DNA of 64,000 bases from Alcanivorax sp. 1008 (lineage in GTDB: Bacteria; Pseudomonadota; Gammaproteobacteria; Pseudomonadales; Alcanivoracaceae): positions 1 through 64,000 of the forward strand of contig NZ_JAFMPS010000009.1 in the NCBI RefSeq assembly GCF_020667895.1, written 5' to 3'. The notes under the pieces are model-generated. The model saw only the letters and a program-made list of their open reading frames with translations, did no database searches and had not been told where the DNA came from. This document shows, piece by piece, positions 5,788-43,797 of this stretch. The stretch's first letter is position 1, and every line of letters starts with the position of its first letter. A program made the translations under genes and the position numbers.

Positions 5788-7172
5788 AAAAATTTCTAAA
5801 AGCGTCAATTATAGGAGTTGGATCATATGAGATCGAATCATTCATGTCATTTTTTTGCAGATGGGCATGGCTTCATTTTCTAACACCTTCTGCCTTTGCT
5901 CTGGAGGTCGCGAGGGCCTGGGAGGATATAACGGGAGAGAGATTTCCAGTAAATGCAAAAGGATTTCATAATGTGAGACAACTTTTGAGGCCTGCGGAGT
6001 TTTCCTCAGCGTTTCTGCATGCGTCTTCTATCATCTTGGATGATCTTGATCTCGAAAAGGGAACATTCACCCCATTGGAGGATTGTATTTCAATTTCATG
6101 CCTTATAAATCCAAGTGCGTCTTGGTGTGGTGATTGTTTTCTTGAGCATCTTGATCATGGCACGACACCATACATTCGGCATTACTGGACGATTAGATCC
6201 GTAAAACGATGTCTTCGTCATGGGGGTTATCTGCGTATTGTCTGCCCACACTGCGGATCTCTGCAGGATAGGCTTGTCATTCAGGAGTCGGTAGCTCATT
6301 GCCAATCTTGCAGAAAGTTTATGGCTATTAGAGGAGATGGAGGGGATATTCCGTGTCGCGAGAATATCGATGAGCATTCCATCGCAATGATGCACCTCTG
6401 CGATCTTGTATCAAATGGGTGGCGTGCTAATAGAGACGTTATTAGAGATAATTTGTTGAAGATACTTAGGGCAAGACCTTTTGCATATAGCCCGCCACAC
6501 CCGTACAAAAGAAGCGATATTGTAGCGAATGATTATTACAATGTGGTTTCTAATTGTAGGAAGTTCATAGCAAATAGGGATCGCCGCATTTCTGTTCTTG
6601 ACATACTTAATATTTCTGAGTCAGTGGCAAACATTTCCTTTCTTGAGGTTCTGACGTCGGAGAGACCGGTTTGGCAAACTGCGCTGAAGTTGGGTACCAC
6701 ACTTCGTCTGCCGGCTTATCACATGCCCATTAGGCCGGTGAAAGATCGCCACAGAGATCATTTTGGGGTTTTGCATAGATTCAAGCAGATTGCCTCAAAG
6801 GAAGGTGAGATTCATTCGCTTAAGGTAGTCGCGGCGAAGCTGGGGGTCTCGGTCGGATATTTGCAGTATCGATTTCCCTCGGAAGTTTCAGATTACCGAC
6901 TGAGATATAAGACATACAAAGAGCAGGACCGTCGGCTAAGGCGGGCGAAAGCAATAACGGTTGTGAGGGCTTATTTGGCAGATGCGAGGTGGCCGGAAGA
7001 GAGGGTCTCAAGGCCTAAGTTAGTGGAGGAGCTGAGGGTCCGGACGGGGCTCGGGAGGAACGATCTTGATAGGGCTGCGATCATGGTCATGGGGGTCGGC
7101 AAGGCCAAGGTTGCTTATCGCACCAAACCTAGATCGAAGCTGCCGTCGAATGTCTTTGAGGACGTTGGCTAG
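5784..7172 (+). CDS. tniQ: TniQ/TnsD-family target-site selector
   Basis: This 462-residue protein is the likely DNA-binding subunit that directs insertion, recruiting TnsC. It has the TniQ-type cysteine pairs: C115/C118 (SWCGDC), C154/C157 (VCPHCG) and C173/C176 (HCQSCR), expected to bind zinc. A helix-turn-helix-like stretch (SLKVVAAKLGVSVGYLQYRF) is followed by a basic C-terminal region (YKEQDRRLRRAKAI). The length is close to TnsD of Tn7 rather than to the short guide-associated TniQ proteins. The gene overlaps tnsC by four bases and has GGAGGT at 5774-5779. Because the element ends beside tRNA-Arg(CCG), the tRNA gene is the natural candidate for the recognised site; that is inference. 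No second targeting gene is visible. Confidence 0.85.
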   Translation: MKKFLKASIIGVGSYEIESFMSFFCRWAWLHFLTPSAFALEVARAWEDITGERFPVNAKGFHNVRQLLRPAEFSSAFLHASSIILDDLDLEKGTFTPLEDCISISCLINPSASWCGDCFLEHLDHGTTPYIRHYWTIRSVKRCLRHGGYLRIVCPHCGSLQDRLVIQESVAHCQSCRKFMAIRGDGGDIPCRENIDEHSIAMMHLCDLVSNGWRANRDVIRDNLLKILRARPFAYSPPHPYKRSDIVANDYYNVVSNCRKFIANRDRRISVLDILNISESVANISFLEVLTSERPVWQTALKLGTTLRLPAYHMPIRPVKDRHRDHFGVLHRFKQIASKEGEIHSLKVVAAKLGVSVGYLQYRFPSEVSDYRLRYKTYKEQDRRLRRAKAITVVRAYLADARWPEERVSRPKLVEELRVRTGLGRNDLDRAAIMVMGVGKAKVAYRTKPRSKLPSNVFEDVG

Positions 7173-11628: not shown

Positions 11629-13650
11629 CTAGCGATTGAGCATGGCTTTGATTGCTGCCAGAGTGTCTTCTGCTACTTGCTCGGTTTTTGACTCGTCCAC
11701 CTGCACGCCTTCCCCCTGAAAATCGATATCATCTGCAGGCATTTCCTCGACGAAACGACTGCGCGCGGTGTCGATTCTCTCTCCATATTGTTTGCGCGAT
11801 AGCGCGTGTGTCATGGTAAGAGTTTCGCGCGCCCGGGTGATGCCTACGTACATCAGGCGACGCTCCTCGGTGATACTGTCCTCCTCAATGCTTGTCCGGT
11901 GTGGCAGCAGCTCTTCCTCCACCCCCATCATATAGACATGGGGATATTCCAGGCCCTTGGCGGCATGCAGGGTAAGCATTTGCACCCGATCGGAATCATC
12001 CTCTTCCTCTTGCTGCTCCAGCATGTCGATTAATACAAGCTTGCGGATAACTGCCTCAAGGTCGGAGCTGTCATCCTCCTCTTCCTGTTTGTTAAGCATA
12101 CGTTCGATGCTGGCCACCAGTTGGCCAACATTCTCCACTTTCTTTTCACCAATACGCGGGCTACTGGCCTGAGTGATAAGCCAGCCTTCGTAATCCATAT
12201 CGCTGATTAATTCTTTTACTGCCTGCAGGCTGTTGTCGCTAAAACAGTATTGGCGTTTGTGATCCAGCCAGCTTTTGAACTCTCGCAGTCGCGCCGCAGC
12301 TTTGCCGCCAAGTGCTTCGTCTAGCGCGATATCGTCACACACATGATACATGCCTTGGCCACGCTTGACCGACCAGTTGGCCAGCTTTTCCAGTGTTGCC
12401 GGGCCGATCTCACGGCGTGGTGTGTTGATGATGCGGAGAAAGGCGTTGTCGTCATCCGGGTTAACCAGCAGGCGCAGGTAACACATCAGATCCTTGATCT
12501 CGGTGCGGGCGAAAAAACTTTGCCCACCAGACACCTTGTACGGTACCTGCATGGTCTGGAACTTCATCTCAAGCAAGCGAGACTGGAAATTTCCCCGATA
12601 AAGAACCGCAAAGTCCTTCCACTTCAGCGCCTTTGTCAGGCGTTTATGGATGATGTCGCCGGCAATCCATTCGGTCTCCGCCTCTTCGTCGCGCAGCGAC
12701 ATCACCCGGATTGGATCGCCGTAGCCATAATCTGACCACAGTGACTTTTCGAAAACATGGGGGTTATTGGCAATTACCGCGTTGGCAGCCTTGAGAATGC
12801 GACCGGTGGAGCGATAGTTCTGCTCCAGCTTGATGACTTTCAGATCAGGAAAGTCGCTTTGCAGCTGAGCCAGATTCTCCGGCTTTGCTCCGCGCCATGC
12901 ATAGATCGACTGATCATCGTCGCCCACCACGGTGAACTTGTTGAGCGGCTCAACCAACTGTTTGACCAGCTCGTACTGACAGCCGTTGGTATCTTGATAC
13001 TCATCCACCAGCAGATAGCGGATGCGATTGCGCCACTTCTCCAGAATTCGCGGCTGCTCACGAAACAACAATACCGGGAGCAGGATCAGGTCATCAAAAT
13101 CTACCGCGTTACAGGCTCGCAGCATGCGGTTGTATTCGCCGTAGGTGATGGCGGCGCGCTGCAGCTCTTCGGAGTCGGCACTGGAGAGCGCCTGCTCCGG
13201 TGTCACCAGGTCATTTTTCCACTGGGATATCTTGCTCTGGAAAAATTCCACTGCCTGGATATCGCGTTCCGACTCTCCACGATGCAACAGCTCGCGCATC
13301 AATTCACGGCTGTCAGATTGGTCGAGAATGGAGAAGCCACTGCGTAGCTTGACTGCGGCCATTTCGGTTTTCAGGATCCGCAGCCCGAGGTTGTGAAAGG
13401 TGGAGACGATCAGGCCGCGGGCATCCTCGCGGGGTACCAGCTTCAGCACCCGCTCCTTCATTTCCCGGGCTGCCTTGTTGGTGAAGGTTACCGCGGCAAT
13501 ATGGCGCGCCGGCATGCCGCGCTCCTGAATCAGAGAAGCAATCTTCTGGGTGATCACACTGGTTTTGCCCGAGCCAGCGCCAGCCAGCACCAATAGCGGC
13601 CCATCGGTCCAGTTCACGGCTTCCTGTTGACGGGGATTAAGGCGGCTCAC
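11629..13650 (-). CDS. rep: ATP-dependent DNA helicase Rep
   Basis: This 673-residue superfamily 1A 3'-5' helicase helps replication forks pass bound proteins. The length equals that of E. coli Rep. Motifs are clear: Q motif LNPRQQEAV, Walker A GAGSGKT (residues 24-30), VTFTNKAAREMKER, DEYQDTN (motif II), VVGDDDQSIYAWRGA (motif III), QNYRSTGRIL, MTLHAAKGLEYPHVY (motif V) and EERRLMYVGITRAR (motif VI). The gene is convergent with cytochrome c5, an arrangement also seen in pseudomonads. UvrD is the close paralogue, but the length and sequence fit Rep. Confidence 0.95.
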   Translation of the reverse strand: MSRLNPRQQEAVNWTDGPLLVLAGAGSGKTSVITQKIASLIQERGMPARHIAAVTFTNKAAREMKERVLKLVPREDARGLIVSTFHNLGLRILKTEMAAVKLRSGFSILDQSDSRELMRELLHRGESERDIQAVEFFQSKISQWKNDLVTPEQALSSADSEELQRAAITYGEYNRMLRACNAVDFDDLILLPVLLFREQPRILEKWRNRIRYLLVDEYQDTNGCQYELVKQLVEPLNKFTVVGDDDQSIYAWRGAKPENLAQLQSDFPDLKVIKLEQNYRSTGRILKAANAVIANNPHVFEKSLWSDYGYGDPIRVMSLRDEEAETEWIAGDIIHKRLTKALKWKDFAVLYRGNFQSRLLEMKFQTMQVPYKVSGGQSFFARTEIKDLMCYLRLLVNPDDDNAFLRIINTPRREIGPATLEKLANWSVKRGQGMYHVCDDIALDEALGGKAAARLREFKSWLDHKRQYCFSDNSLQAVKELISDMDYEGWLITQASSPRIGEKKVENVGQLVASIERMLNKQEEEDDSSDLEAVIRKLVLIDMLEQQEEEDDSDRVQMLTLHAAKGLEYPHVYMMGVEEELLPHRTSIEEDSITEERRLMYVGITRARETLTMTHALSRKQYGERIDTARSRFVEEMPADDIDFQGEGVQVDESKTEQVAEDTLAAIKAMLNR

Positions 13651-13818
13651 AGCGGGGTTCCTTCAGCGGGCCGCCATGATACCAGCTCAAGGCCGGCCGC
13701 TGACACCAGCGTCCGCAGGACTGAGCGATTCCGTCCTTGTTGCCGACGGGGGCGTCCTTTAACGTCGGCCCTCTATAGGTTCGCCGTGCGGACCATCTCT
13801 GACCTTGAGGGCCCTGTG

Positions 13819-14577
13819 ATGACCGATAACCTGTTCTCCCTGAGTGGCAAACGCGTGCTGATTACTGGCGCTTCCAGCGGCTTTGGTGCTCATTTCGCCA
13901 AGGTGCTGGCCGGTGCCGGCGCCGACGTAGTGCTTGCGGCACGGCGGGTGGAGAAACTGGAGGAAACAGCGACCGAGGTTCGGGCGCTGGGTCGTCATGC
14001 GGTGGTTCTGCCTATGGATGTGTCCAGCCATGCCAGTGTTGAAGAGGCTTTCAGTGCCATGCCGGAGATCGATGTGGCCATCAACAATGCCGGCATCAAC
14101 CGCGTTGGCACCTGTGACGGTCTTGATGAGGAAGACTGGGACGCGGTTGTTGATACAGACCTGAAAGGTGTCTGGGCAGTGAGCAAGTTTGCCATTCGTC
14201 AGTGGCGCCGCGATAGCCGCCCCGGCAACCTGATCAATATTGCCTCCATCCTCGGCCTGCGGGTCGGAGCCCAACTACCGCCCTATACTGCCTCTAAAGC
14301 GGCGGTGATCCAGCTAACCAAGTCTATTGCGCTTGATTACGCTCGCTACAACATTCGCTGCAATGCTATTTGCCCTGGATTTTTTCGTACCGAGATCAAC
14401 AGCGACTGGCTGGAAACCGAGGCCGGCATAAGTCAGATCAAACGGGTGCCAATGCGACGTACCGGCGAGATGAAGGAAATGAGCGGTCCTCTGCTGATGC
14501 TTGCTTCCGATGCCTCTGCTTATATGAGTGGTTCAATTATTGCCGTTGATGGCGGACACCTGTGCTCGTCGCTGTAA
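13819..14577 (+). CDS. Short-chain dehydrogenase (LvaD-like position)
   Basis: This 252-residue NAD(P)-dependent oxidoreductase of the SDR family has the cofactor motif TGASSGFG, the NNAG motif and the catalytic YTASK. It starts at ATG 13819 with TTGAGGG just upstream. It is the first gene of a tight four-gene operon with an acyl-CoA dehydrogenase, an APH-type kinase and a DUF6285 protein. In the Pseudomonas levulinate (lva) pathway the equivalent SDR interconverts 4-oxoacyl-CoA and 4-hydroxyacyl-CoA, so a role in 4-hydroxy or 4-oxo acid metabolism is a reasonable inference. The SDR call is certain; the substrate is not. Confidence 0.85.
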   Translation: MTDNLFSLSGKRVLITGASSGFGAHFAKVLAGAGADVVLAARRVEKLEETATEVRALGRHAVVLPMDVSSHASVEEAFSAMPEIDVAINNAGINRVGTCDGLDEEDWDAVVDTDLKGVWAVSKFAIRQWRRDSRPGNLINIASILGLRVGAQLPPYTASKAAVIQLTKSIALDYARYNIRCNAICPGFFRTEINSDWLETEAGISQIKRVPMRRTGEMKEMSGPLLMLASDASAYMSGSIIAVDGGHLCSSL

Positions 14578-14587
14578 GGAGAACATG

Positions 14588-15787
14588 ATGGATTTTTCAC
14601 TGCCGCAGAATATTGAAAAGCTGCGATTAAAGGTGCGCGACTTTGTCGCCAAAGAAGTCATGCCGCTGGAGCAGAACAAGAGCAATTTTGATGAGCACGA
14701 AAACCTCAATGAAGATGTGGTCGCAGCATTGCGAGTGAAAGCAAAAGCGGCTGGGCTGTGGGGTTTTCAGGTGCCGAAAGAATATGGCGGCCTTGATGTC
14801 GGCGTGGTGGGAATGGCGGCGTTATATGAAGAAGCGGCGCGCTCGCCATTCGGGCCGGTAGCGTTTAACTGCGCGCCGCCGGATGACGGCAACATGATCG
14901 TGCTTAACAAGATTCTTTCTGAGGAGCAAAAAGCTCGCTGGTTGCAGCCCATCATCGACGGCAAGGTGCGCTCTGCTTTTGCCATGACCGAACCGGATGG
15001 CGGTTGTGGTTCTGATCCGTCTCTGACCTATACCAGTGCTACCCGGGAGGGAGATAACTGGATTATTCGAGGACGAAAGTGGTTCATTACCGGAGCAGAA
15101 GGCGCGCAGATTTTTATTCTGGTCGCGAAAACTTCTGATGACCCACGCAAGGGGCTGACTGCCTTTCTGTTTGATGCGGATCAGCCCGGCTGGGAGGTTG
15201 TCCGGCGTATCGGAATCATGGGCCCGGAAGAGCATGGCGGGCACTGTGAGCTCAAGTTTGATGGTCTGGTGATTCCGGACAGTCAGCGCCTGCTGAATAT
15301 CGGCGATGGCCTGAAAGTTACCCAGATCCGTCTTGGTACGGCGCGCTTGACCCACTGCATGCGTTGGCTTGGTCTCGCCAAGCGCTGCATGGAAGAAGCC
15401 GCCGGCTATGTGGAGAAGCGCATGAGCTTTGGCACCACTCTGTCCGAACACGAAGGCGTGCAGTGGATGCTCGGCGATGTGGCCAAGGACATTCAGATTG
15501 GCCGGCTGCTGACTATGCAGGCCGCCTGGAAGCTTGATCAGGGGGACTTTGCCCGCACCGATATTTCCATCGCCAAGATTCATGTGGCTGACACGTTGCA
15601 TAAAGCAGCTGATACCGCGATTCAGTTGTGTGGTGCGCGTGGCTACTCAAAAGACACCTTGCTCGAATGGATCTATCGCTATGCCCGTCAGGCCCGTCTT
15701 GTGGATGGCGCCAGCGAAATTCACAAAATGGTGTTGTCTCGTGCCTACCTGAAAGAAAAGGCAGATTTCTTTCACTGGGGCGTGTAA
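14588..15787 (+). CDS. Acyl-CoA dehydrogenase (LvaC/ACAD10-11-like position)
   Basis: This 399-residue flavoprotein of the acyl-CoA dehydrogenase family has the FAD/substrate-binding segments AFAMTEPDGGCGSD and WFITGAEGA, and the C-terminal IQLCGARGYSKDTLLEWIYRYAR. ATG 14588 is preferred over ATG 14585 because it sits six bases from AAGGAG. Its stop overlaps the start of the kinase gene (TAATG). In lva-type and mammalian ACAD10/11 systems the dehydrogenase-fold enzyme acts with an APH kinase on 4-phosphorylated hydroxyacyl-CoA, removing phosphate to give an enoyl-CoA. The operon context suggests the same here; ordinary acyl-CoA oxidation is the alternative. Confidence 0.88.
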   Translation: MDFSLPQNIEKLRLKVRDFVAKEVMPLEQNKSNFDEHENLNEDVVAALRVKAKAAGLWGFQVPKEYGGLDVGVVGMAALYEEAARSPFGPVAFNCAPPDDGNMIVLNKILSEEQKARWLQPIIDGKVRSAFAMTEPDGGCGSDPSLTYTSATREGDNWIIRGRKWFITGAEGAQIFILVAKTSDDPRKGLTAFLFDADQPGWEVVRRIGIMGPEEHGGHCELKFDGLVIPDSQRLLNIGDGLKVTQIRLGTARLTHCMRWLGLAKRCMEEAAGYVEKRMSFGTTLSEHEGVQWMLGDVAKDIQIGRLLTMQAAWKLDQGDFARTDISIAKIHVADTLHKAADTAIQLCGARGYSKDTLLEWIYRYARQARLVDGASEIHKMVLSRAYLKEKADFFHWGV

Positions 15788-16791
15788 TGCAGTCAGTTGA
15801 ACAGAAGGCCATTGCCGACTGGCTTGCTGCAAAAACTGGCAAGCCGGTGCAGCTCAGTAATGTGCGGGCGCTTTCCGGTGGCGCTATTCAGGAAAACTGG
15901 GCGGCAGATATTGATCTGGGTGATGAAGTTATTGCAGCGGTGATTCGCTGCGATGCGCCTTCGTCAGTATCCGACAGTCTTTCCCGGCAGCAAGAGTTCG
16001 CGCTGCTTAAAGCCGCCTTTGCCAATGGTGTTACCGTGCCGGGGCCGTTGTGGCTTGGCGATCCGGCGCTATTGGGTCGTGATTTCTTCATCATGCGTCG
16101 CGCCAATGGGACCGCCGCCGGGCACAGGCTGGTGCGTGATCTGTCGCTGGCAAATGATCGTCCGGCGCTGGCCCGACAACTGGGTCGCGAGTTGGCACGG
16201 ATCCATGGGATCAGGCCACCCCGTGATGATCTGGACTTTCTGCCGCTTCCAGAGATTCATCCTGCCCAAGAGTTCGTTGATAGTGCACGTGCATTTCTGG
16301 ATCAGTATCACAGCGCTTTTCCGGCACTGGAATGGGGACTGAACTGGCTGGAAGATAATATGCCGGCACAGGAGCCGCTATGCCTGGTGCATCGTGATTT
16401 CCGTACCGGCAATTACATGGTGGATGAGAATGGCCTGACGGCGGTTCTTGATTGGGAGTTCACTGGCTGGTCACAACCGCTGGAAGATTTGGGGTGGCTG
16501 TGTGCGCGGTGCTGGCGCTTCGGCCAACAGGGTGATGATTATGCGGTGGGCGGCATTGGTCATCGCGACGATCTGTTTGCCGGCTATCAGGAAGTATCGG
16601 GCCGCAAGCTTACCGCTGAGCAGGTGTACTATTGGGAAGTTTTTGCTCATCTGCGCTGGGCAATGATCGCCATCAAACAGGGTGAAAGGCATTTGTCCGG
16701 TGCGGAGCCATCCCTGGAGCTGGCGCTAACCTCGCACATTGTTCCCGAGCTGGAATTACACATCCTGCGTATGACCGGGTTGGAGGGCTAA
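15787..16791 (+). CDS. APH-family phosphotransferase (LvaA-like 4-hydroxyacyl-CoA kinase candidate)
   Basis: This 334-residue kinase-fold protein has the aminoglycoside-phosphotransferase catalytic loop LVHRDFRTGNYMV and the metal-binding LDWEFTGW. It starts at ATG 15787 inside the stop of the acyl-CoA dehydrogenase gene. Proteins of this subgroup sit beside acyl-CoA dehydrogenases and, where studied (LvaA, ACAD10/11), phosphorylate the 4-hydroxyl of hydroxyacyl-CoAs. The DUF6285 gene four bases downstream matches the small LvaB partner. Nothing indicates antibiotic resistance. Confidence 0.82.
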   Translation: MQSVEQKAIADWLAAKTGKPVQLSNVRALSGGAIQENWAADIDLGDEVIAAVIRCDAPSSVSDSLSRQQEFALLKAAFANGVTVPGPLWLGDPALLGRDFFIMRRANGTAAGHRLVRDLSLANDRPALARQLGRELARIHGIRPPRDDLDFLPLPEIHPAQEFVDSARAFLDQYHSAFPALEWGLNWLEDNMPAQEPLCLVHRDFRTGNYMVDENGLTAVLDWEFTGWSQPLEDLGWLCARCWRFGQQGDDYAVGGIGHRDDLFAGYQEVSGRKLTAEQVYYWEVFAHLRWAMIAIKQGERHLSGAEPSLELALTSHIVPELELHILRMTGLEG

Positions 16792-16795
16792 AACT

Positions 16796-17152
16796 ATGCG
16801 TATTCAACCGGACGGAATTAATCTGCTTGATACGGTCACTGCTCTGTTGCGTGATCAGGTGCTGCCGTCTGCTGCCGCTGACCAGCAGTACGCCCTGCGT
16901 ATGGCTTTGAACGCTATTGGCATTGCCCGTCGACAGCTGGCCAATGGCAGTCAGGCTGAACAGCAGGAGCAGGCATTGATGGCCGAGCTGCTGGCGGAGC
17001 AGGGCAGTCACGAGCAGCTATCTCGGCTATTGGCCAGGCAGGTGCGTGAAGGCAAGGTCAAAAGCAGTATGCCGCTGCGTGATTTGTTGTGGCAGGTTAC
17101 GCTTCAGCGCGTTCGGGAAAGTGCGCCGCGCTATCTCAAGCAGGAAGGATAA
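16796..17152 (+). CDS. DUF6285 protein, probable kinase partner (LvaB-like)
   Basis: This 118-residue all-helical cytosolic protein (TALLRDQVLPSAAADQQYALRMALNAIGIARRQL) resembles DUF6285 proteins that travel with APH-type kinase genes. It begins four bases after the kinase stop. By position and size it corresponds to LvaB, a small protein needed for the activity of the LvaA kinase in Pseudomonas putida. No catalytic motif is visible. The family assignment is from pattern recognition and should be confirmed by a profile search. Confidence 0.7.
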   Translation: MRIQPDGINLLDTVTALLRDQVLPSAAADQQYALRMALNAIGIARRQLANGSQAEQQEQALMAELLAEQGSHEQLSRLLARQVREGKVKSSMPLRDLLWQVTLQRVRESAPRYLKQEG

Positions 17153-17274
17153 AGCCGTTCTCAAATGCCAGAATTTCTGGAACCGCTGTTCCGGATTGGC
17201 ACAAAATGCCCTGAATGTCTGCTCGGCGACGGCCCATACTTTGGTCATTGCGGATAAGCCACAGGAGTTAGCCA

Positions 17275-18147
17275 ATGAATGCCCGCGCCCAGACAGCCAT
17301 ACGTCGTACTAATAAAAGTGATATTCAGCCGCGCAAGATGGATTTCCAGTTCGATCCAGGCATTGAGCGTTACTGGTTCGGAGGCGATCAGTTCAAGACT
17401 CTGTTGCTGACTGCGCTGTCCTGCACTTTTCCTGAGGGGGAGCGTTTCTTCGTCCGTTCAGTGCGCCACTACCAGAAAAATCTTACCGACCCACTGCTCA
17501 AGGAGCAGGTAAAGGGCTTCATTGGTCAGGAAGCGCACCATGGCAATGAGCACGAAGTTTTCAATGCCTTTATGGAAGAGCGTGGTGTGCCCACCAGCAA
17601 GGTATCGGACTTTGTGCTGAATGGCCTGAAGATGCAGGGCAAGGTGTTGTCGCCGGAGCGTCAGCTCGCCAAGACCTGTGCCTTGGAACACTTTACCGCC
17701 ATGCTGGCCGAGTTGATTCTTGAGCGTCCTGAATTTCTCGAAGGCATGGATCAGCGCATGCTGCCTCTATGGTTGTGGCATGCCGTTGAAGAGAGCGAGC
17801 ACAAGGCGGTGGCTTTTGATGTCTATCAGGATCAGGTAGGCAGCTACTGGACCCGTACCAGCGAAATGGCGATCACCACGGTCGAGTTCGTCGGCTTCAC
17901 CATTTTCCATTACTTCCAGCTGCGTGCGGAGATGGATGACAAGACGGATTTTCGTTCTGTAATGAATGGCTTCAACTGGCTGCTGGGCAAGCCGGGCTGG
18001 CTACGTCGTCTGGGGCCGTCCTATCTGGCTTACTTCAAACGAGATTTTCACCCTTCTAAGAAAGACAGCAGTCAGCTACGTCAGCAGGGACTGGAAAAGT
18101 TGGCACGCATGCTGAACCGTCCAGAGCTTCTCGAATTCGCTGCCTGA
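17275..18147 (+). CDS. Predicted metal-dependent hydrolase (PF10118 family)
   Basis: This 290-residue soluble protein is of the predicted metal-dependent hydrolase family common in hydrocarbon degraders and mycobacteria. Likely metal ligands are spread in helices: ERFFVRSVRHY, GQEAHHGNEHE, LEHFTAMLAE and WHAVEESEHKAVAFDVY. The E-x-x-H patterns recall ferritin-like di-iron proteins, so an oxygenase-like role is possible. The start has AGGAG at 17263-17267. It is 122 bp downstream of the DUF6285 gene and may form its own unit. The reaction is unknown. Confidence 0.75.
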   Translation: MNARAQTAIRRTNKSDIQPRKMDFQFDPGIERYWFGGDQFKTLLLTALSCTFPEGERFFVRSVRHYQKNLTDPLLKEQVKGFIGQEAHHGNEHEVFNAFMEERGVPTSKVSDFVLNGLKMQGKVLSPERQLAKTCALEHFTAMLAELILERPEFLEGMDQRMLPLWLWHAVEESEHKAVAFDVYQDQVGSYWTRTSEMAITTVEFVGFTIFHYFQLRAEMDDKTDFRSVMNGFNWLLGKPGWLRRLGPSYLAYFKRDFHPSKKDSSQLRQQGLEKLARMLNRPELLEFAA

Positions 18148-18158
18148 AACACGCCCTA

Positions 18159-20321
18159 TCAGAGCGGGAGAGGGTCTCCCGCTCTATCGTCAACTTGCAA
18201 CGGCACACGCACGTTTACCCACCAGAAATCCTGCTGCACGCCGATGCCCGCCACACCGCCGAGACGTGTGGCTCGTTGCCTGATAATGCCAATGCCGCGA
18301 CCTTCGTGGGAGCCCATTTTGTCCTGGTTCAGGCCATCGTTTTCCACCGATATGGCCAGTGAACCTTCCCGCTCAGACAGCTTGATCCTGATTACTGATG
18401 GGGCAGCATGGCGTAGCGCGTTGCTGACTGCCTCGCGGACAATTCTTGTCAGGTCAGCAATACGGCGCTGATCAATCTCTGTATCCAGAGAGGCCAGCGA
18501 GGAATGCCATTCAAGCGTTACGCCGCCAGCATCGCAACGCTGACGTGCTTCCTGCTCCCACTGCAGGGCTGCCTCATCCAGAGATAGCGTGAAGGTCTCC
18601 ATAGTGCTGAGCAGGTCACGCAGATCGCGAATGGCATCCCTTACCAGTTTCTGTTCATCGGTGGAGTTGCTACGGTGTAACAGGGTCAGCAGTTTGGCGC
18701 CCAGATCATCATGGATATCCTGACGGATACGATCGCGTTCACTACGCGCGCCCTGTTCATGGGCGCTTAATGACTCCTCGACTAAACGATACAACTGCAG
18801 AATCAGGGTCGCCGCTTCGATATCGCGGGAAGTAAAAAGTCGCGCGCCTTGATCCGCATGATGTAATCGCAAAACAGTATGATCTGCCGGGCTGGGTAGC
18901 TGAAGGCACAGCCCGTTGTCGGTGATTGCTGGCTTGACCAGTGTGCCTTCCGTTTCGGTGATGTCCAGCGGGTTAAATACAGCAGCGGCCGACTGTTGAA
19001 GTGCGTTGCCGAGCTGGTTGGTGCGCGAAGCGGAAACCATTGGCGGCATTGCCTGAGCCAGCCAGTCCTCAATGGTTCTGCCGCGCCGTCTGGCCAGCTT
19101 GCTCCATAGCCACTGACGCAGAGGAAAATAGATCCATCCCACCAGTGCAACTGCGAGACTCAATGCAATCGGTTTTGACAGCGCCAGGAAGCTGACCAGC
19201 AGTAGATCGATGGCGATTACTGCGAGACCGCCAAGAAACCATGCCCAGATAGAAAACCACCAGCGCTCCAGCTGGAATAGCTTGTAGCGGGTTATGCCGA
19301 AAGCCAGTCCGATGTACATGATCAGGAACGCGCCAAACATAACGCCTTGAGAAGCTGGCGGCATGACGCCCAGCGCGGCAGGAATGATAATGACGCCGGC
19401 GAATAGACCGGTGGCAAGGTAGATGGACAGCAGAAACCAGCGCAAAGCGGCACGGTCGGCCGGCTTGCTGCGCGTGCCCAGCCACTGGAAAAAGGCGAAC
19501 ACAAAGCTGAGGGCAAAAATAGCCAGCACGGACAGATGGAATTGTGCGCTTGTGCTGGTCAGTTGCAGGGTATCAGAGACCCATGTCAGTGCGGCAACCA
19601 GATAGCACAGTGAGGCAATGGGAAAGCGGCCGATGCGGATCGGGTAATGCCACAGCAGGCTGGTCAGGGAGGCGGTGAAGAACAGCGCTCCAAAGTGATT
19701 GGCGATGGACAGGGTGCGAAACAGGTCACCGTCGATCAGCAGCTCGCGGGTGCTGTATACCGCAGCGGCGGGGGCGAAAATCAGATAGCCAATACCTGTC
19801 ATGAAGTACAGGGCGGCAGGCAGGCTGCGGAGACGTACGCTCCAGACGATGGCTCCGGTCATGGCGCCAATCATGCCGAACGCCACCTGCAACCAAAACA
19901 GCAATGGCAACGAGTGAAGCGGCCGCGTGCTGGTGGCCAGAGCAAGTTGTTCGCCGCTGTCGCTGACCACGGAAAGGCTACCGCTGCTGGCAGCGTTAGC
20001 GAGGGTGCTGCTGTCGTCCATCAGTTGGTTGTAATCGGCGTATGCCGGCAGCACATCAGGCTCTTCAATTAGCAGTACTGCGTTGGCGTCGATGTATCTC
20101 TCTGCAGCCTGAAAGCCGGTGGCCCGCATGCCATCGGTGAATGTGGCAGCATTCGGCCCATGACGATCGACGCTCTGAACGGTCAGTCCGCCATCAGGGT
20201 GAACAGACCAGCTGATCCCGGTCCAAGGCAGTGACAGGGCGGTACTTACGCTTAGCAGCAGAACGCACAGGGCCAGCAGGCCGCTGAGTGTCACGGTCAG
20301 GCGGGGAGAAGGATTGAACAC
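18159..20321 (-). CDS. NarL-type sensor histidine kinase with multi-helix membrane domain
   Basis: This protein of about 720 residues starts with a membrane helix, a periplasmic segment with PDZ-like character (GGLTVQSVDRHGPNAATFTDGM), and then about eight to ten membrane helices. The cytosolic part has a HisKA_3 dimerisation motif DIRQDIHDDLGAKLL-type around RIRQDIHDDLGA, and a HATPase domain (REAVSNALRHA, GRGIGIIRQRA). The start GTG 20321 has AGGAAG at 20329-20334 on the minus strand; an upstream GTG at 20360 lacks this. It is divergent from the LuxR-type response regulator at 20444, its likely partner. The signal is unknown. Confidence 0.85.
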   Translation of the reverse strand: MFNPSPRLTVTLSGLLALCVLLLSVSTALSLPWTGISWSVHPDGGLTVQSVDRHGPNAATFTDGMRATGFQAAERYIDANAVLLIEEPDVLPAYADYNQLMDDSSTLANAASSGSLSVVSDSGEQLALATSTRPLHSLPLLFWLQVAFGMIGAMTGAIVWSVRLRSLPAALYFMTGIGYLIFAPAAAVYSTRELLIDGDLFRTLSIANHFGALFFTASLTSLLWHYPIRIGRFPIASLCYLVAALTWVSDTLQLTSTSAQFHLSVLAIFALSFVFAFFQWLGTRSKPADRAALRWFLLSIYLATGLFAGVIIIPAALGVMPPASQGVMFGAFLIMYIGLAFGITRYKLFQLERWWFSIWAWFLGGLAVIAIDLLLVSFLALSKPIALSLAVALVGWIYFPLRQWLWSKLARRRGRTIEDWLAQAMPPMVSASRTNQLGNALQQSAAAVFNPLDITETEGTLVKPAITDNGLCLQLPSPADHTVLRLHHADQGARLFTSRDIEAATLILQLYRLVEESLSAHEQGARSERDRIRQDIHDDLGAKLLTLLHRSNSTDEQKLVRDAIRDLRDLLSTMETFTLSLDEAALQWEQEARQRCDAGGVTLEWHSSLASLDTEIDQRRIADLTRIVREAVSNALRHAAPSVIRIKLSEREGSLAISVENDGLNQDKMGSHEGRGIGIIRQRATRLGGVAGIGVQQDFWWVNVRVPLQVDDRAGDPLPL
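18161..18185. terminator. Perfect 10-bp hairpin at a convergent gene junction
   Basis: AGAGCGGGAG pairs with CTCCCGCTCT around an AGGGT loop, between the hydrolase gene and the minus-strand histidine kinase. It overlaps the last codons of the kinase and lacks a T run, so it may be a weak or factor-assisted terminator. Confidence 0.5.
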
Positions 20322-29677: not shown

Positions 29678-30424
29678 TCAGGACATTCGACTGATCATCT
29701 TCAGCGGCATATTGCGCATCAGAAAGCCCATGACCGCCCAAGGCCAGCGCGGCACGCTGGCCTCGGCGGACTCCTTTTCAATGGCCTTGACCAGTAACCG
29801 GCATCCGGTTTCAGTGTCCACCATAAATGGGGTGTTTTTCACCTTCTCGTTAATTTCCGAACGGATATAGCCCGGATAAATAGTGCTGACCTTAATTGGC
29901 TTGCCAATCATTTCAGCGCGAATGCCTTCGGTCAGTGATGCTACCCCCGCCTTGGTGGCGGCGTAGGTGGTCAGATTTTTGGGCATGCCACGCATGGCGC
30001 TCATGGACGAGATCATTACCAGGTGGCCATCATTCTGAGCGCGAAAAATCTCCATGGCCGCTTCGCACTGGGCCAGCGCGGCAACAAAATTAGTTTCCGC
30101 AGTTTGCCGGTTGGCCCAAAAGTAGCCGGTGCCAAGGGGCTGGCCCTTGCCCATGCCAGCGTTGACGATAATCCGGTCAATGCCGCTAAACTCTTCGCGA
30201 AACTCACGGAACACCTCGAAAACCTGATCATAATTCAGTACATCCAGCGCCTTGATCGAGACCTTGATGCCGGGATGTTTGCTTTCAAGCTCAAGCTTCA
30301 ACTCCTCAAGTCGATCGGTACGCCGCGCGCATAGCGCCAGATTGCGACCCATGGCTGCAAACTCGCGGGCCATGCCGCGGCCCAAGCCGGAACTGGCGCC
30401 GGTAATCAGAATGGTCTTGCGCAT
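29678..30424 (-). CDS. Short-chain dehydrogenase
   Basis: This 248-residue SDR has the cofactor motif TGASSGLG, R residues after strand 2 (CARRTDR) that favour NADPH, NAGMG and the catalytic YAATK. It is the last gene of a five-gene minus-strand cluster with a histidine phosphatase, an APH-type kinase, another SDR and an acyl-CoA dehydrogenase, all apparently for acyl-CoA or lipid metabolism. The substrate is unknown. Confidence 0.85.
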   Translation of the reverse strand: MRKTILITGASSGLGRGMAREFAAMGRNLALCARRTDRLEELKLELESKHPGIKVSIKALDVLNYDQVFEVFREFREEFSGIDRIIVNAGMGKGQPLGTGYFWANRQTAETNFVAALAQCEAAMEIFRAQNDGHLVMISSMSAMRGMPKNLTTYAATKAGVASLTEGIRAEMIGKPIKVSTIYPGYIRSEINEKVKNTPFMVDTETGCRLLVKAIEKESAEASVPRWPWAVMGFLMRNMPLKMISRMS

Positions 30425-30436
30425 TGTTGTCTCCTG

Positions 30437-31123
30437 TTAGCGATAGGTAAGCAGGCGACGATGTTCGCCTTCGAAATGTCCATGGTCGTTAAAGGTGCTC
30501 AAATGCATGCCGCGGCGACCAACCACAATCTTGGTTACCGACGCATTAGCCACCACCCGGTTGAGTTTGCGCCATTCGCCGTCCGGCATATTCCATAGTC
30601 TTTTCACGGTGGCACAAATGGCACCACCAGATGTGAAGACCATGGTGCTGTCCACCTGATAGTTAACGATGCTATTCAGTGATTCGTCTATTCGCTGACG
30701 GAACATGGGCCAGGTTTCTTTGTATTCGTTGTCGTGTACACCGGACACCCAGCGATCCAGAGCCTGCTCAAAGAATTCCTGAAAGGCATCCTTTGGTCGC
30801 AGCGTGCGAGCCATGTCTGCCATCATATAGGTGCGACTCTTATATTTAGGGTTCTGGCGAATGATCAGCTCCTGATGATCGTATTCATTCCAGCCCGGGT
30901 CGACGCGCCACTCTGGGGATAATCCCATATGAGTCAAGACATGCTCGGCAGTTTGCTTATGTCTACGCATATTGCCGGCAACAATCATGTCTGGCCGACC
31001 GATGCGCTTTAGTAACACACCGCCAAGGTGCTGTGATTGTGCAATGCCGGTGGCGGAAAGTTCGTCATAGTCAGTTTTTCCCCATGACGCCTGACCATGA
31101 CGAATCAAATATATCACTGCCAT
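30437..31123 (-). CDS. Histidine phosphatase (phosphoglycerate mutase-like)
   Basis: This 228-residue member of the histidine phosphatase superfamily has the catalytic RHG motif at the start (LIRHGQASWG), a second arginine in NMRRHKQTAEH and the second histidine region replaced by TSGGAIC. In the usual family that position is often GHG or SHG, so the second catalytic histidine is not obvious here. It begins two bases from the APH-kinase stop. A phosphatase beside an acyl-CoA kinase is suggestive, but its substrate is not known. Confidence 0.8.
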   Translation of the reverse strand: MAVIYLIRHGQASWGKTDYDELSATGIAQSQHLGGVLLKRIGRPDMIVAGNMRRHKQTAEHVLTHMGLSPEWRVDPGWNEYDHQELIIRQNPKYKSRTYMMADMARTLRPKDAFQEFFEQALDRWVSGVHDNEYKETWPMFRQRIDESLNSIVNYQVDSTMVFTSGGAICATVKRLWNMPDGEWRKLNRVVANASVTKIVVGRRGMHLSTFNDHGHFEGEHRRLLTYR

Positions 31124-31124
31124 A

Positions 31125-32198
31125 TTAGCGCTTGCCCTTGATGACTTTCTTGCAGGTGTGCTGCAGGTAGTGATTAAACAGCCAGAAATGCTTGAATGCA
31201 GGGTTACGCGTCTGTTTGTGATGATAGCGGTAGTAGATTTGCTGCACGATCACCGCCAGACGGAAGAGTCCATAAACTTCATAAAAGGTCCAGTTATCTG
31301 CTTTTAGATTCATTTTGTCGCAGTAGTAGTCCACCACTTCGCGACGAGTAAGCATACCGGGCAGGTGGGTTGGCTGCCTACGCAACAGGGTATTGATGCG
31401 ATCATCATCCGCCTGCACCCAATAGGCCAGTGTGTTGCCGAGGTCCATCAAAGGATCACCCAGCGTCGCCATCTCCCAGTCCAGTACGCCGATAATATTT
31501 TGTGGGTCATCCGCATCCAGTACAAGATTATCCATGCGGTAGTCGTTATGAATGATTACCGTGCCGACATCGTCCGGCATATTGGCATGAAGCCAGTTGC
31601 GTACACTTGTCCAGCCTGGAACATTCCAGGTTTTCGATTTTTCGTAACGATCAGACCAGCCCGTAATCTGTCGCTTGACGTAGCCGCCGCCCTTGCCAAT
31701 ATGCTCGAGTCCGGCTGCTTGGTAATCTACTTGATGTAGCTCGATCAGCTTGTCGATTACGCCATGACATAGCTGTCGGGTCTGCCCTTCGCTGAGGGCT
31801 AGCTCCTTTGGTAAATTGGCCCGAGGAATAATCCCCTTGATGCGATCCATGACATAGAAATCACAACCCATCACCGCGCTGTCTTCGCATAGTGCCACCA
31901 TGGTGGGCACCGCTGGGTAAACTGGTTTCAGAGATTGTTGGATACGAAACTCGCGCGCCATATCGTGAGCGCCTTTTGCCTTATGGCCAAACGGCGGGCG
32001 GCGCAGGATCAGATCCCGCTCCGGGTAGCTGAGCATATAGGTGAGATTGGAGGCGCCGCCAGAAAACTGTTTGATTGTCGGCTCGCCTTGCAGGGAAGGC
32101 AGTTGTTGTTTGAGCCAATCGTCCATGGCGGAAACATCAAAGCGTTCCTCTTCTCGAACTTCGCGAGGTTTATCCAGCAGCGCCTCATTGCCGGCCAT
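31125..32198 (-). CDS. APH-family phosphotransferase (ACAD10/11 kinase-domain type)
   Basis: This 357-residue kinase-fold protein has GGASNLTY and LILRRPP in the N-lobe, the catalytic loop IIHNDYRMDNLVLD (N replaces the usual R/G of HRD/HGD) and GVLDWEMATLGDPLMDLG for metal binding. The sequence is the type fused to acyl-CoA dehydrogenase in mammalian ACAD10/11. It starts at ATG 32198, one base from the stop of the SDR gene, with GGAGAAG upstream. Phosphorylation of hydroxyacyl-CoA is the likely job; aminoglycoside resistance is not. Confidence 0.83.
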   Translation of the reverse strand: MAGNEALLDKPREVREEERFDVSAMDDWLKQQLPSLQGEPTIKQFSGGASNLTYMLSYPERDLILRRPPFGHKAKGAHDMAREFRIQQSLKPVYPAVPTMVALCEDSAVMGCDFYVMDRIKGIIPRANLPKELALSEGQTRQLCHGVIDKLIELHQVDYQAAGLEHIGKGGGYVKRQITGWSDRYEKSKTWNVPGWTSVRNWLHANMPDDVGTVIIHNDYRMDNLVLDADDPQNIIGVLDWEMATLGDPLMDLGNTLAYWVQADDDRINTLLRRQPTHLPGMLTRREVVDYYCDKMNLKADNWTFYEVYGLFRLAVIVQQIYYRYHHKQTRNPAFKHFWLFNHYLQHTCKKVIKGKR

Positions 32199-32199
32199 G

Positions 32200-33006
32200 T
32201 TACTTCTCCAGCTTCTTGTAAAAACGTCGGCCGGAGTCGGCCAATCCATAGTTATACAGCGCGGGGACGTAACGCTTGATCAGCGCCAGTGCTTTGCCCT
32301 CAGTATGTGGCAGCTCAAGGAAGCGTTGCTTCTGTTGCGCCCGAACAATTTTTGCGGCCACTTGCTCCGCCGAAAGCTTGCCCCCGGATAATAGCTTTCT
32401 CACGGTCTGATCCATGCCTGCCTCCGGCGTGCGCATGCTCTCTGCCAGATTGGTCTGGAAAAAGCTCGGACAAACCACAGTGGTATGAATGCCATAGGGT
32501 GTCAGTTCGTGGCGAAGCGTTTCGGACAGAGACACCACGCCGGCCTTGGTGACATTGTAGGAGCTCATGGTCGGCGCATTGGCCACCGCTGCGAGAGATG
32601 CGATATTGACGATGTGGCCGCTCTTCTGCTTCTTGAACAGGGGAACAAAAGTACGGCAGCCGCGGATGACACCTTTCAGATTGATGTCGATAATCCAGTC
32701 CCAGTCTTCCATGCTTATCTTGTCGATTCTGCCGCCCGCGGCCACGCCTGCGTTGTTAACCAGTACGTCCAGTCCGTCCCAGTTTTCTATGGTCCACTCA
32801 AGCAGCGTATTCCAGTCTTCATCAATTGTGGTATTTGCCTTGACGAAATGCACATCGCCTAATGGGCGTAGCTCGAACTCTGCCTCGTTGCCGCGCTGTT
32901 CATTGATGTCGGTGATCAAAACCCGCGCACCAATTTTCAGATATTGCTTGGCCATCTCTTTGCCGAGGCCCGAGGCGCCGCCGGTAATCAGAACACGTTG
33001 CGACAT
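32200..33006 (-). CDS. Short-chain dehydrogenase
   Basis: This 268-residue SDR has TGGASGLG, the acidic D after strand 2 (ITDINEQRG, NAD preference), NNAGVA and the catalytic YNVTK. ATG 33006 is chosen for GGAGAAC upstream; the frame runs 12 codons further without homology. It lies between an acyl-CoA dehydrogenase and a kinase gene in the same direction. A stem-loop at 33048-33080 separates it from the acyl-CoA dehydrogenase. Confidence 0.85.
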   Translation of the reverse strand: MSQRVLITGGASGLGKEMAKQYLKIGARVLITDINEQRGNEAEFELRPLGDVHFVKANTTIDEDWNTLLEWTIENWDGLDVLVNNAGVAAGGRIDKISMEDWDWIIDINLKGVIRGCRTFVPLFKKQKSGHIVNIASLAAVANAPTMSSYNVTKAGVVSLSETLRHELTPYGIHTTVVCPSFFQTNLAESMRTPEAGMDQTVRKLLSGGKLSAEQVAAKIVRAQQKQRFLELPHTEGKALALIKRYVPALYNYGLADSGRRFYKKLEK

Positions 33007-33047
33007 TTTTTGTTCTCCATGAAAAGAAATTCGAAAAGGCAAAACGT

Positions 33048-33080
33048 CTGAGAGCGATCCCGCTACAGAATCGCTCTCAG
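33048..33080 (-). terminator. Attenuator-like hairpin between two cluster genes
   Basis: CTGAGAGCGAT and ATCGCTCTCAG form a perfect 11-bp stem with an 11-base loop. On the minus strand it is followed by ACGTTTTGCCTTTT, so it may terminate part of the transcripts after the acyl-CoA dehydrogenase gene. Confidence 0.55.
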
Positions 33081-33100
33081 AGGCCAGCTGCTATAGCCGA

Positions 33101-34309
33101 TCAGTTCTTGTACTTCATCAACTCAAATTTCGCAATCAGGCCACGATGCACTTCATCTGGCCCGTCAGCAAGGCGCAGCGCGCGCGCTGCGGTCCATGCT
33201 GCCGCTAGCGGAAAGTCCTGACTCATGCCGCCGCCACCATGGATCTGCATGGCCATATCGACGACCTTTTGTGCCACGTTAGGGCAGATTACCTTGATCT
33301 GCGATATCTCGCTCATGGCTGCGAACACGCCCTTGTTGTCAATTAGCCAGGCGGCCTTGAGTACCAGTAGGCGAGCCTGCTCGATCATGATCCGTGCTTC
33401 GGCAATGCGCTCGCGGTTGCCACCCAGATTAACCAGCGGCTTACCAAAGGCCACTCGCTCGGTGCCGCGCTTGCACATCAACTCCAGCGCCAGCTCTGAC
33501 AAGCCGATCAGTCGCATGCAGTGATGAATGCGGCCCGGCCCAAGGCGCCCCTGGGCAATTTCAAAACCACGGCCGGGGCCAGCTATGATGGAGCTCTTCG
33601 GCAGGCGGACATTGGTGAACTCTACTTCGCCGTGGCCGTAGGGCTCGTCATACATGCCCATGGCGGTGAGCATTCGGGTGACTTTAACTCCGGGGGTGTC
33701 GCGCGGCACCAGCACCATTGAATGCTGGGCGTGACGACCCGCAGTCGGGTCGGTCAGGCCCATAAAGATCAGCACCTTGCAATTCGGGTGGCCAATACCG
33801 GTGCTCCACCATTTGGTGCCGTTCAGTACCACCTCGTCGCCGTCAATCTTCGCTGTTGCCGCCATATTGGTAGCATCGGATGAGGCAACACCCGGTTCGG
33901 TCATGCAAAAAGCAGAGCGGATTTCGCCCGCCAGCAGCGGGGTGAGCCACTGGGTCTTTTGCTCTTCATTGCCGTAGTGATACAGCACTTCCATATTGCC
34001 GGTGTCCGGCGCGTTGCAGTTAAAGATCTCCGGGGCAATCGCGGAGCGCCCGGTCAGTTCCGCCACTGAGGCATAGTCGGTCACCGACAGACCGGCGCCG
34101 AGCTTGTCGTCCGGCAAGAACATATTCCACAGGCCTTCGGCTTTGGCCTTGGCTTTCAGTTGTTCGATGAGTGGTAGCACCACCCATTTGTTGTCCAGAC
34201 TCTGCAGCTCCTGGTGATAGGCCTCCTCAGCCGGGGTGACGTGCTCGTCCATAAAGCGTTTTACGCGGTCGTAATAGTCCTGGGCTTTCGGGGAAAGGCT
34301 GAATTCCAT
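33101..34309 (-). CDS. Acyl-CoA dehydrogenase
   Basis: This 402-residue flavoprotein of the acyl-CoA dehydrogenase family has AFCMTEPGVASSDATN and WWSTGIGHP near the flavin, and MAMQIHGGGGMSQDFPLAAAWTAARALRLADGPDEVH at the C-terminus, the pattern of ACAD10/11-like enzymes. ATG 34309 has GGAGACC just upstream. It is the first gene of the minus-strand cluster and is divergent from a LysR regulator, which probably controls it. The acyl chain it acts on is not evident. Confidence 0.9.
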   Translation of the reverse strand: MEFSLSPKAQDYYDRVKRFMDEHVTPAEEAYHQELQSLDNKWVVLPLIEQLKAKAKAEGLWNMFLPDDKLGAGLSVTDYASVAELTGRSAIAPEIFNCNAPDTGNMEVLYHYGNEEQKTQWLTPLLAGEIRSAFCMTEPGVASSDATNMAATAKIDGDEVVLNGTKWWSTGIGHPNCKVLIFMGLTDPTAGRHAQHSMVLVPRDTPGVKVTRMLTAMGMYDEPYGHGEVEFTNVRLPKSSIIAGPGRGFEIAQGRLGPGRIHHCMRLIGLSELALELMCKRGTERVAFGKPLVNLGGNRERIAEARIMIEQARLLVLKAAWLIDNKGVFAAMSEISQIKVICPNVAQKVVDMAMQIHGGGGMSQDFPLAAAWTAARALRLADGPDEVHRGLIAKFELMKYKN

Positions 34310-34385
34310 GGTGGTCTCCGCATGGCTGCTGGCTTGGTCAGTGACAGTTGTTCCAGTGAGACTCAGTCTATGGCAGGCTCTACCC

Positions 34386-34400
34386 ATTCATCCAATGAAT
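34386..34400. promoter_or_regulatory. LysR-type binding box
   Basis: ATTCATCCAATGAAT is a perfect 15-bp palindrome of the T-N11-A form. It lies 18 bp before the LysR gene and 77 bp before the divergent acyl-CoA dehydrogenase gene, where a LysR regulator would bind to control both. Confidence 0.65.
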
Positions 34401-43634: not shown

Positions 43635-43797
43635 ACTTACACTCGCCAATGTCAGGTTCAGATGAGCTGACCTTACCGGCGTGGCCCGATATGACGAAGG
43701 TCATTATGGGCCTTTCATGGGTCTGAACTGGCCGGGGTGACAAATTGGCCCGGTCGTCGGGGCCTTATTTGCTTCGATCATGGAGCAGAGCGCCCTG

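Follow-up and report, generated by a model that had tools for sequence, protein, structure and literature searches.

A putative LvaABCD-type gene unit in Alcanivorax sp. 1008 and the association of DUF6285 proteins with LvaA-type kinases

Introduction

The lva operon of Pseudomonas putida KT2440 (lvaRABCDEFG) serves the catabolism of levulinic acid (Rand et al. 2017, cited here through PMC6692424 and PMC9399607). PMC6692424 reports that lvaA, lvaB and lvaC are required for growth on levulinate, that LvaB was pulled down with LvaA and that lvaE is dispensable in P. putida. A related chemistry is known from the animal proteins ACAD10 and ACAD11. In mouse ACAD11, residues R626, H634, R637 and D753 are described as diagnostic for 4-phosphoacyl-CoA chemistry and fit a phosphate at C4 in the published model, and D220 and N225 are the kinase residues (PMC12440821). 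Recombinant ACAD10/11 and Burkholderia pseudomallei proteins are active, and 4-, 5- and other hydroxy acids have been compared as to ACAD10 (PMC11342911). Here we describe four consecutive genes at positions 13819-17152 of a 64,000-nucleotide stretch (the window) at the start of contig NZ_JAFMPS010000009.1 of Alcanivorax sp. 1008, a genome of 3.53 Mb in 115 contigs. The genes encode a short-chain dehydrogenase/reductase (SDR), an acyl-CoA dehydrogenase-like protein (ACAD), an APH-family kinase and a DUF6285 protein. They would form an LvaABCD-type unit that feeds 4-oxo- and 4-hydroxyacyl-CoA into beta-oxidation, a reading to which we give a probability of about 0.85 on the sequence evidence set out below.

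The four-gene unit itself represents a known kind of pathway. Of more interest to specialists would be the rule that links DUF6285 to one type of kinase and the co-occurrence of the two kinase systems within the window. In a literature search the name DUF6285 appeared in no paper, and no title or abstract opening that was found states the pattern.

The four-gene unit and its likeness to the lva operon

As claimed in a preliminary description of this DNA, the SDR, ACAD, kinase and DUF6285 genes are consecutive, all on the plus strand and no more than 10 nucleotides apart (Table 1). The intergenic distances are 7-10, -1 and 4 nucleotides; an alternative ACAD start, ATG, lies at 14585, and the kinase start shares one base with the ACAD stop (TAATG). 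The Pfam matches of all four proteins are far beyond chance. The SDR has the NAD(P)-binding motif TGASSGFG (TGxxxGxG) and the catalytic motif YTASK (YxxxK), and the DUF6285 protein is the sole match to its family (PF19802, cut-off 28.1 bits) in the genome.

A tblastn search of plasmids supplied the reference for comparison, locus L068, a plasmid of Pseudomonas aeruginosa on which the complete lva gene order is present; it stands in for the P. putida KT2440 operon, and all identities refer to it. Its order is regulator-A-B-C-D-ligase-DUF485-symporter, and lvaB is named in the record, where it is annotated as '4-hydroxypentanoyl-CoA kinase subunit LvaB'. That LvaB belongs to the DUF6285 family had been assumed, and L068 LvaB does match PF19802, at 85.3 bits; the window DUF6285 protein finds it with a phmmer value of 3e-15. 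Identities of 44-49% for the SDR, ACAD and kinase, and of 37% for the DUF6285 protein, support the proposed assignment of the LvaD, LvaC, LvaA and LvaB roles. In the kinase tree, the LvaA reference nests within the kinase clade of these modules. The best PDB sequence match of both the ACAD (3e-61) and the kinase (4e-13) is ACAD11, and so neither points outside the Lva/ACAD10-11 groups.

The residues tell the same story. The ACAD reads IRLGTARLTHCMRW and VDGASEIHK at its motif sites, and the kinase reads HRDFRTGN. Six of six positions agree with the published ones, namely R248, H256, R259 and D373 in the ACAD and D204 and N209 in the kinase, and the equivalent of ACAD11 R631 is also present. 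The four ACAD positions are invariant in 15 aligned ACADs, which were picked for carrying HCMR.

These residues bear on the simplest alternative, namely that an ordinary acyl-CoA dehydrogenase happens to stand beside an unrelated small-molecule kinase and that the two share no pathway. Both families are large, with 23 ACAD and 8 APH matches in the genome. Furthermore, a profile search of genome contigs with the ACAD alignment gave 586 confirmed loci, of which the best 80 were taken as named ortholog loci, and 23 of these 80 have no kinase in the fetched stretch. However, the window ACAD has the upstream Arg, the HCMR cluster and the Asp, so that all four residues are present. Its gene also overlaps the kinase gene by one base, and loci of Alcanivorax, Marinobacter, Azospirillum and Corallococcus show the same set of neighbours. 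A chance pairing is therefore hardly credible.

Some observations do weigh against an LvaABCD-type unit. No sigma-70-like promoter was found in 13500-18300, where 2.4 were expected by chance, and the DUF6285 protein is only 37% identical to LvaB. The 23 loci without a kinase also have no DUF6285 in the fetched stretch, which means that the ACAD is not always encoded together with a kinase. Lastly, the unit has no linked ligase, and neither a transporter nor an LvaR-like regulator is among the neighbours listed beside it. An LvaE query found nothing on this contig, in line with the preliminary description; on the other contigs of the genome its top two hits reach 31-33% identity. No LvaR-like regulator or LvaFG uptake system is apparent among the neighbouring open reading frames (ORFs), which were read only, with no dedicated search. 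Since lvaE is dispensable in P. putida, we do not count a linked ligase as defining for the four-gene unit; with ligase, transporter and regulator all unseen, the substrate cannot be read from context.

Upstream of the SDR gene is a divergent gene for a UvrD/Rep helicase (11629-13650), which also adjoins the ortholog loci L053 and L056. Downstream of the DUF6285 gene is a Metal_hydrol (PF10118) gene (17275-18147). This gene was considered as a fifth member of the unit and rejected, as none of the stretches fetched around the 80 ortholog loci contains a match to it.

Proposed pathway and substrate

The pathway would begin with a ligase, encoded elsewhere, that makes the CoA ester, and the LvaD-like SDR would interconvert the 4-oxo and 4-hydroxy forms. 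The kinase and the DUF6285 protein, acting like LvaA plus LvaB, would transfer a phosphate from ATP to the 4-hydroxyl. The LvaC-like ACAD would then eliminate the phosphate by way of its FAD, the HCMR cluster and the catalytic Asp, without net oxidation, to give a 2-enoyl-CoA. The activity, the two-part nature of the kinase and the substrate are what we infer; the substrate is perhaps a 4-hydroxy acid or a gamma-lactone from sub-terminal oxidation. A link to lactones or to sub-terminal alkane oxidation has been suggested, and it would fit an Alcanivorax-like lineage. The preliminary description was correct as to the genes, and very probably also as to the chemistry that they would carry out.

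The SDR-ACAD-kinase-DUF6285 order recurs in relatives, some of them beside AMP ligases and transporters. For example, L055 has a Liv-type ATP-binding cassette (ABC) system and a TetR gene, Sulfitobacter has a tripartite ATP-independent periplasmic (TRAP) transporter and Paracoccus has a tripartite tricarboxylate transporter. The L055 kinase is identical to a Marinobacter changyiensis kinase. No such uptake systems were seen beside the window unit, and it is therefore plausible that the acid is made inside the cell, by sub-terminal oxidation or lactone opening.

The variety of these uptake systems, together with a relative near paa genes, would also suit another explanation, in which the same chemistry acts on another position or substrate class, such as 5-hydroxyacyl-CoA or hydroxylated branched, cyclic or aromatic acyl-CoAs. 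The window ACAD does form a group with its orthologs (58-86% identity in the listed rows) that is set apart from LvaC, at 43-45% identity. However, none of the counterparts of R626, H634, R637 and D753 has been lost, and in the ACAD11 model these fit a phosphate at C4 (PMC12440821). We consider a different substrate position or class unlikely and prefer 4-hydroxyacyl-CoA.

The nearest named relatives of the window ACAD, among the matches listed, are from Alcanivorax (85-86%). The myxobacterial Corallococcus loci L071 and L072 have an ACAD ortholog that is 78-80% identical within a full SDR-ACAD-kinase-DUF6285 order, and the Marinobacter orthologs are 66-69% identical. That the Corallococcus ACADs are closer to the window protein than those of Marinobacter suggests horizontal transfer.

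DUF6285 and the type of kinase

The presence or absence of DUF6285 displays a pattern, in that it follows the kinase type and not the ACAD. A complete LvaA-type kinase is present in the stretch at 46 of the 80 ortholog loci, and is cut by a contig end at four more. In the 46, DUF6285 follows the kinase in 41, is fused to it in four and is absent beside it in one, L088, the genome of which carries DUF6285 on another contig. At all 41 unfused loci the DUF6285 gene shares the strand of the kinase gene and has its stop codon 284-488 nucleotides past the kinase stop. None of the seven loci with an ACAD11-type kinase has DUF6285. The plasmid loci L061, L062, L063, L067 and L068 have an LvaA-type kinase and DUF6285; L064, L065 and L066, also on plasmids, have a kinase of the ACAD11 type, and DUF6285 is neither annotated nor matched there. 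Viewed from the other side, DUF6285 occurs in 29 of 194 genomes of the order, and an LvaA-type kinase is adjacent to it or fused with it in 29 of the 30 regions fetched around DUF6285 matches, the exception, L060, being around a partial 30-bit match.

Whole genomes were searched in 37 of the 80 cases: 24 without an adjacent kinase, seven with an ACAD11-type kinase and six controls known to have an LvaA-type kinase and DUF6285. Nine of them contain LvaA-type kinases, eight at 42% identity or more and one, in Alcanivorax profundi, at 32%. DUF6285 is clear in the first eight (six above the Pfam cut-off; two fused ones, G228 and G230, seen by our own alignment and not by Pfam). In A. profundi the case is borderline, with a sub-threshold Pfam match (26.7 bits) right after the 32% kinase that our own alignment does not find. 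The other 28 genomes have no LvaA-type kinase, and neither Pfam nor our own alignment finds DUF6285 in them. The tally is DUF6285 in 9/9 genomes with an LvaA-type kinase (one borderline, six controls) versus 0/28. All of the 28 except G217 hold a kinase similar to the second one in the window (E 3e-36 or better), and in 20 of these 27 the label ACAD11-type comes from that similarity alone. Fisher's test gives p 8e-9 with the controls and 2e-4 without them (3/3 versus 0/28); both values ignore kinship. At the A. profundi locus L069, the SDR and ACAD (85%) are kept with no adjoining kinase or DUF6285, and the divergent LvaA-type kinase is about 10 kb upstream.

The trees agree with this pattern. 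In a kinase tree of 92 rows, one branch (SH-aLRT, the Shimodaira-Hasegawa-like approximate likelihood-ratio test, 99) parts 80 rows with an adjacent DUF6285, on the side of the LvaA reference, from 11 without; L088 is unlabelled, and the second kinase of the window forms a long branch. However, 29 of the rows (L031-L059) were collected through DUF6285 and cannot speak against the rule. On the ACAD tree (103 rows, 75 with both traits known), the kinase type changes four times and DUF6285 changes four times, always together. There are only three to four independent pairs on this tree (sign test p 0.25), too few to claim significance; the Fisher values assume more independence than there is, and the association is a pattern rather than a proof. 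Directly supported are the gene order, the homology, the residues and the company of DUF6285 with LvaA-type kinases in the genomes examined.

Fusions of kinase and DUF6285 appear at five positions in the kinase tree (L035/36/38-41, L058/59, L091/94, L103 and L145). Pfam finds both domains in L035, L041, L058 and L103 (31.3 bits), our own alignment alone finds DUF6285 in L091 and L145, and in L094 only the first hidden Markov model does, at 14.9 bits. The L103 and L145 fusions are from single genomes and could be sequencing errors. In the structural model of the natural L103 fusion, the kinase is mostly confident (blocks mostly 90-98) and the DUF6285 part is weak (blocks mostly 60-74, with a loop below 50); its best fold matches are 3dxp, the 25-hydroxysteroid kinase and Rv3168. 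AlphaFold2 predicts the window DUF6285 protein to be all-helical (helices 7-25, 28-50, 53-66, 72-84, 92-109 and 111-116), with a predicted local distance difference test (pLDDT) score of 90.6 and a predicted template modelling (pTM) score of 0.70. Against the PDB this model has no match with E below 2.8, and its best VIA-align Z, 6.0 over 49 residues, is uninformative for helices; these results are no ground for speaking of a new fold.

The DUF6285 pattern, the published pulldown of LvaB with LvaA and the need for lvaB (PMC6692424) together support the idea that LvaA-type kinases are two-part enzymes with DUF6285, for which a single ACAD11-type kinase may substitute without a change of ACAD. 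The activity of recombinant ACAD10/11 and B. pseudomallei proteins (PMC11342911) is consistent with ACAD11-type kinases needing no partner.

Some clusters have further genes. In the Azospirillum and Thermus thermophilus clusters L061, L067, L077 and L089, a histidine phosphatase gene directly follows DUF6285 (that of L061 is split by an IS21 element), and it is possible that the product is a repair phosphatase for stray 4-phospho products. The histidine phosphatase was also considered as a replacement for DUF6285; this was rejected as a rule, as the two are side by side in these same four loci.

An LvaA-type kinase and DUF6285 also occur beside ACADs that have no HCMR and have Glu for the catalytic Asp (for example HFFNENRIRQAASSLG / TEGADEIQM), in L035, L036 and L038-L041, where they are fused, and in L032 and L033. 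L038 also has a 3-hydroxyacyl-CoA dehydrogenase/enoyl-CoA hydratase (ECH) protein and L032 an enoyl-CoA hydratase. A different reaction should follow the kinase in these cases. The stretches of L044, L047, L054 and L057 contain an LvaA-type kinase and DUF6285 but gave no ACAD match; a DUF7064/DUF7065 protein is encoded by the gene preceding the kinase in L044 and L057, and a TetR gene follows in L054.

A second module in the same window

The window contains a second module, of the ACAD10/11 type, at 29678-34387 on the minus strand, which is absent from the preliminary description. Its gene order is ACAD, SDR, kinase, histidine phosphatase and SDR, with no DUF6285, and a divergent LysR gene (34418-35320) adjoins it. 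The ACAD more likely starts at 34309 than at 34387. Its top PDB match, 4hr3, is a putative ACAD in which HAMR takes the place of HCMR. Relative to the lva genes of L068, the identities are 34.8% for the ACAD, 27.1% for the kinase and 27.9-31.4% for the SDRs. The possibility that this ACAD is the closer relative of LvaC was rejected, because the first-module ACAD is 44.7% identical to L068 LvaC. An ACAD alignment search of the genome itself gave 23 matches, with the two module ACADs at 740 and 326 bits and the others at 225 or less. In a related Alcanivorax metagenome-assembled genome (G225), a single contig carries both kinases, separated by about 30 kb and oriented to each other as in the window.

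One could suppose that the two modules serve a single pathway redundantly and are not an Lva-type and an ACAD10/11-type route acting on different substrates, since HCMR, the Asp, a kinase and SDRs are common to both. However, they are not recent copies (the ACADs are 34.6% and the kinases 23.5% identical), and they differ in kinase type, LvaA versus ACAD11, and in having DUF6285 versus a histidine phosphatase. These differences are still compatible with overlapping substrates, but we regard plain redundancy as improbable and favour two routes.

Table 1. Coordinates of the two modules and of the motif positions within the window
Feature	Coordinates	Strand	Evidence
SDR oxidoreductase, LvaD-like, 252 aa	13819..14577	+	Pfam adh_short 1.5e-51; 44.4% identity to L068 LvaD
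ACAD, LvaC-like, 399 aa	14588..15787	+	Pfam Acyl-CoA_dh_1/M/N, Acyl-CoA_dh_1 1.4e-37; 44.7% to L068 LvaC
Arg248 codon, equivalent of mouse ACAD11 R626	15329..15331	+	alignments
HCMR motif, H256-R259, equivalents of ACAD11 H634 and R637	15353..15364	+	alignments
Asp373 codon, equivalent of catalytic D753 of ACAD11	15704..15706	+	alignments
APH-family kinase, LvaA-like, 334 aa	15787..16791	+	Pfam APH 1.2e-31; 48.9% to L068 LvaA
Kinase Asp204 to Asn209, in HRDFRTGN, equivalents of ACAD11 D220 and N225	16396..16413	+	sequence and alignment
DUF6285 protein, LvaB-like, proposed kinase partner, 118 aa	16796..17152	+	PF19802 2.1e-18, 67.2 bits; 36.8% to L068 LvaB
Second-module SDR (second)	29678..30424	-	Pfam adh_short 9e-40
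Second-module histidine phosphatase (His_Phos_1)	30437..31123	-	Pfam 2.6e-21
Second-module APH-family kinase, ACAD11 type	31125..32249	-	PDB 9o56 1e-75, 3dxp 1e-51, ACAD11 6e-47
Second-module SDR (first)	32200..33042	-	Pfam adh_short 1.5e-51
Second-module ACAD, ACAD10/11 type, HCMR and Asp (LADGPDEVHR)	33101..34387	-	PDB 4hr3 1e-184, then ACAD11 3e-135

Other features of the window

Tn7-like transposition genes are present at 2178-7172 on the plus strand. They encode a fused TnsA/TnsB-like protein (Tn7_TnsA-like_N, rve, Mu-transpos_C), a TniB/AAA protein and a protein with a sub-threshold TniQ match. An ORF like a type I restriction R subunit (22-1542) lies ahead of them. A flavin-binding monooxygenase-like protein (FMO-like) is encoded at 42069-43649 on the minus strand; it could carry out a lactone- or alkane-related oxidation step, with no evidence tying it to either module.

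Meaning of the pattern

Bacteria spread this chemistry over separate genes and so show which parts belong together. The pattern predicts a role for DUF6285, that of a subunit needed by one kinase class and not by the other, and a genome in which some 14 kb separate the two classes lends itself directly to testing this. Somewhat tentatively, at a little less than even odds, we suggest that hydroxyacyl-CoA kinases come in two interchangeable systems, one a two-part LvaA-DUF6285 kinase in which DUF6285 is obligate, the other a stand-alone ACAD11-type kinase. The two-part kinase would also have been recruited to other pathways, with Glu-type ACADs that have no HCMR or, where there is no ACAD, with DUF7064/DUF7065 proteins, and would act there on other hydroxylated substrates and supply some further reaction.

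Comparison with known systems

The window unit has the same four roles as the lva operon of P. putida KT2440, as well as the HCMR motif, the Asp and the kinase residues. However, its order is D-C-A-B and the published order is A-B-C-D-E, it has no linked ligase, no DUF485/symporter pair or regulator was seen beside it, and its ACAD belongs to a group that is 43-45% identical to LvaC.

The lva cluster of Pseudomonas citronellolis LA18T (PMC6692424) has LvaA, LvaC and LvaD homologues, as does the window unit. The published cluster shows no lvaB in the region analysed there, and its kinase is 59% identical to LvaA; it also has a histidine phosphatase, like the second module of the window and unlike the first. 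Because the kinase is of the LvaA type, by the kinase/DUF6285 rule a DUF6285 gene is expected elsewhere in that genome.

The 25-hydroxysteroid kinase (PDB 9fsg, 9ft5) also has the APH fold and phosphorylates an alcohol, and it ranks 2-4 among the fold matches of the L103 fusion. Its substrate, however, is according to the entry title a steroid alcohol and not an acyl-CoA, and the identity in the structural alignment is 20-21%.

Lastly, ACAD10 and ACAD11, which act in animal 4-hydroxy acid catabolism, have the kinase and the ACAD in one polypeptide, whereas in the window unit these are separate genes with a one-base overlap. The window kinase is of the LvaA type with DUF6285 and groups with LvaA in the tree, not with the ACAD11-type kinases. 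The likeness to ACAD11 is lower for the first module (3e-61 for the ACAD, 4e-13 for the kinase) than for the second (3e-135 and 6e-47). Judging from the sequences, however, the chemistry of a kinase plus an ACAD is probably common to the bacterial modules and the animal enzymes.

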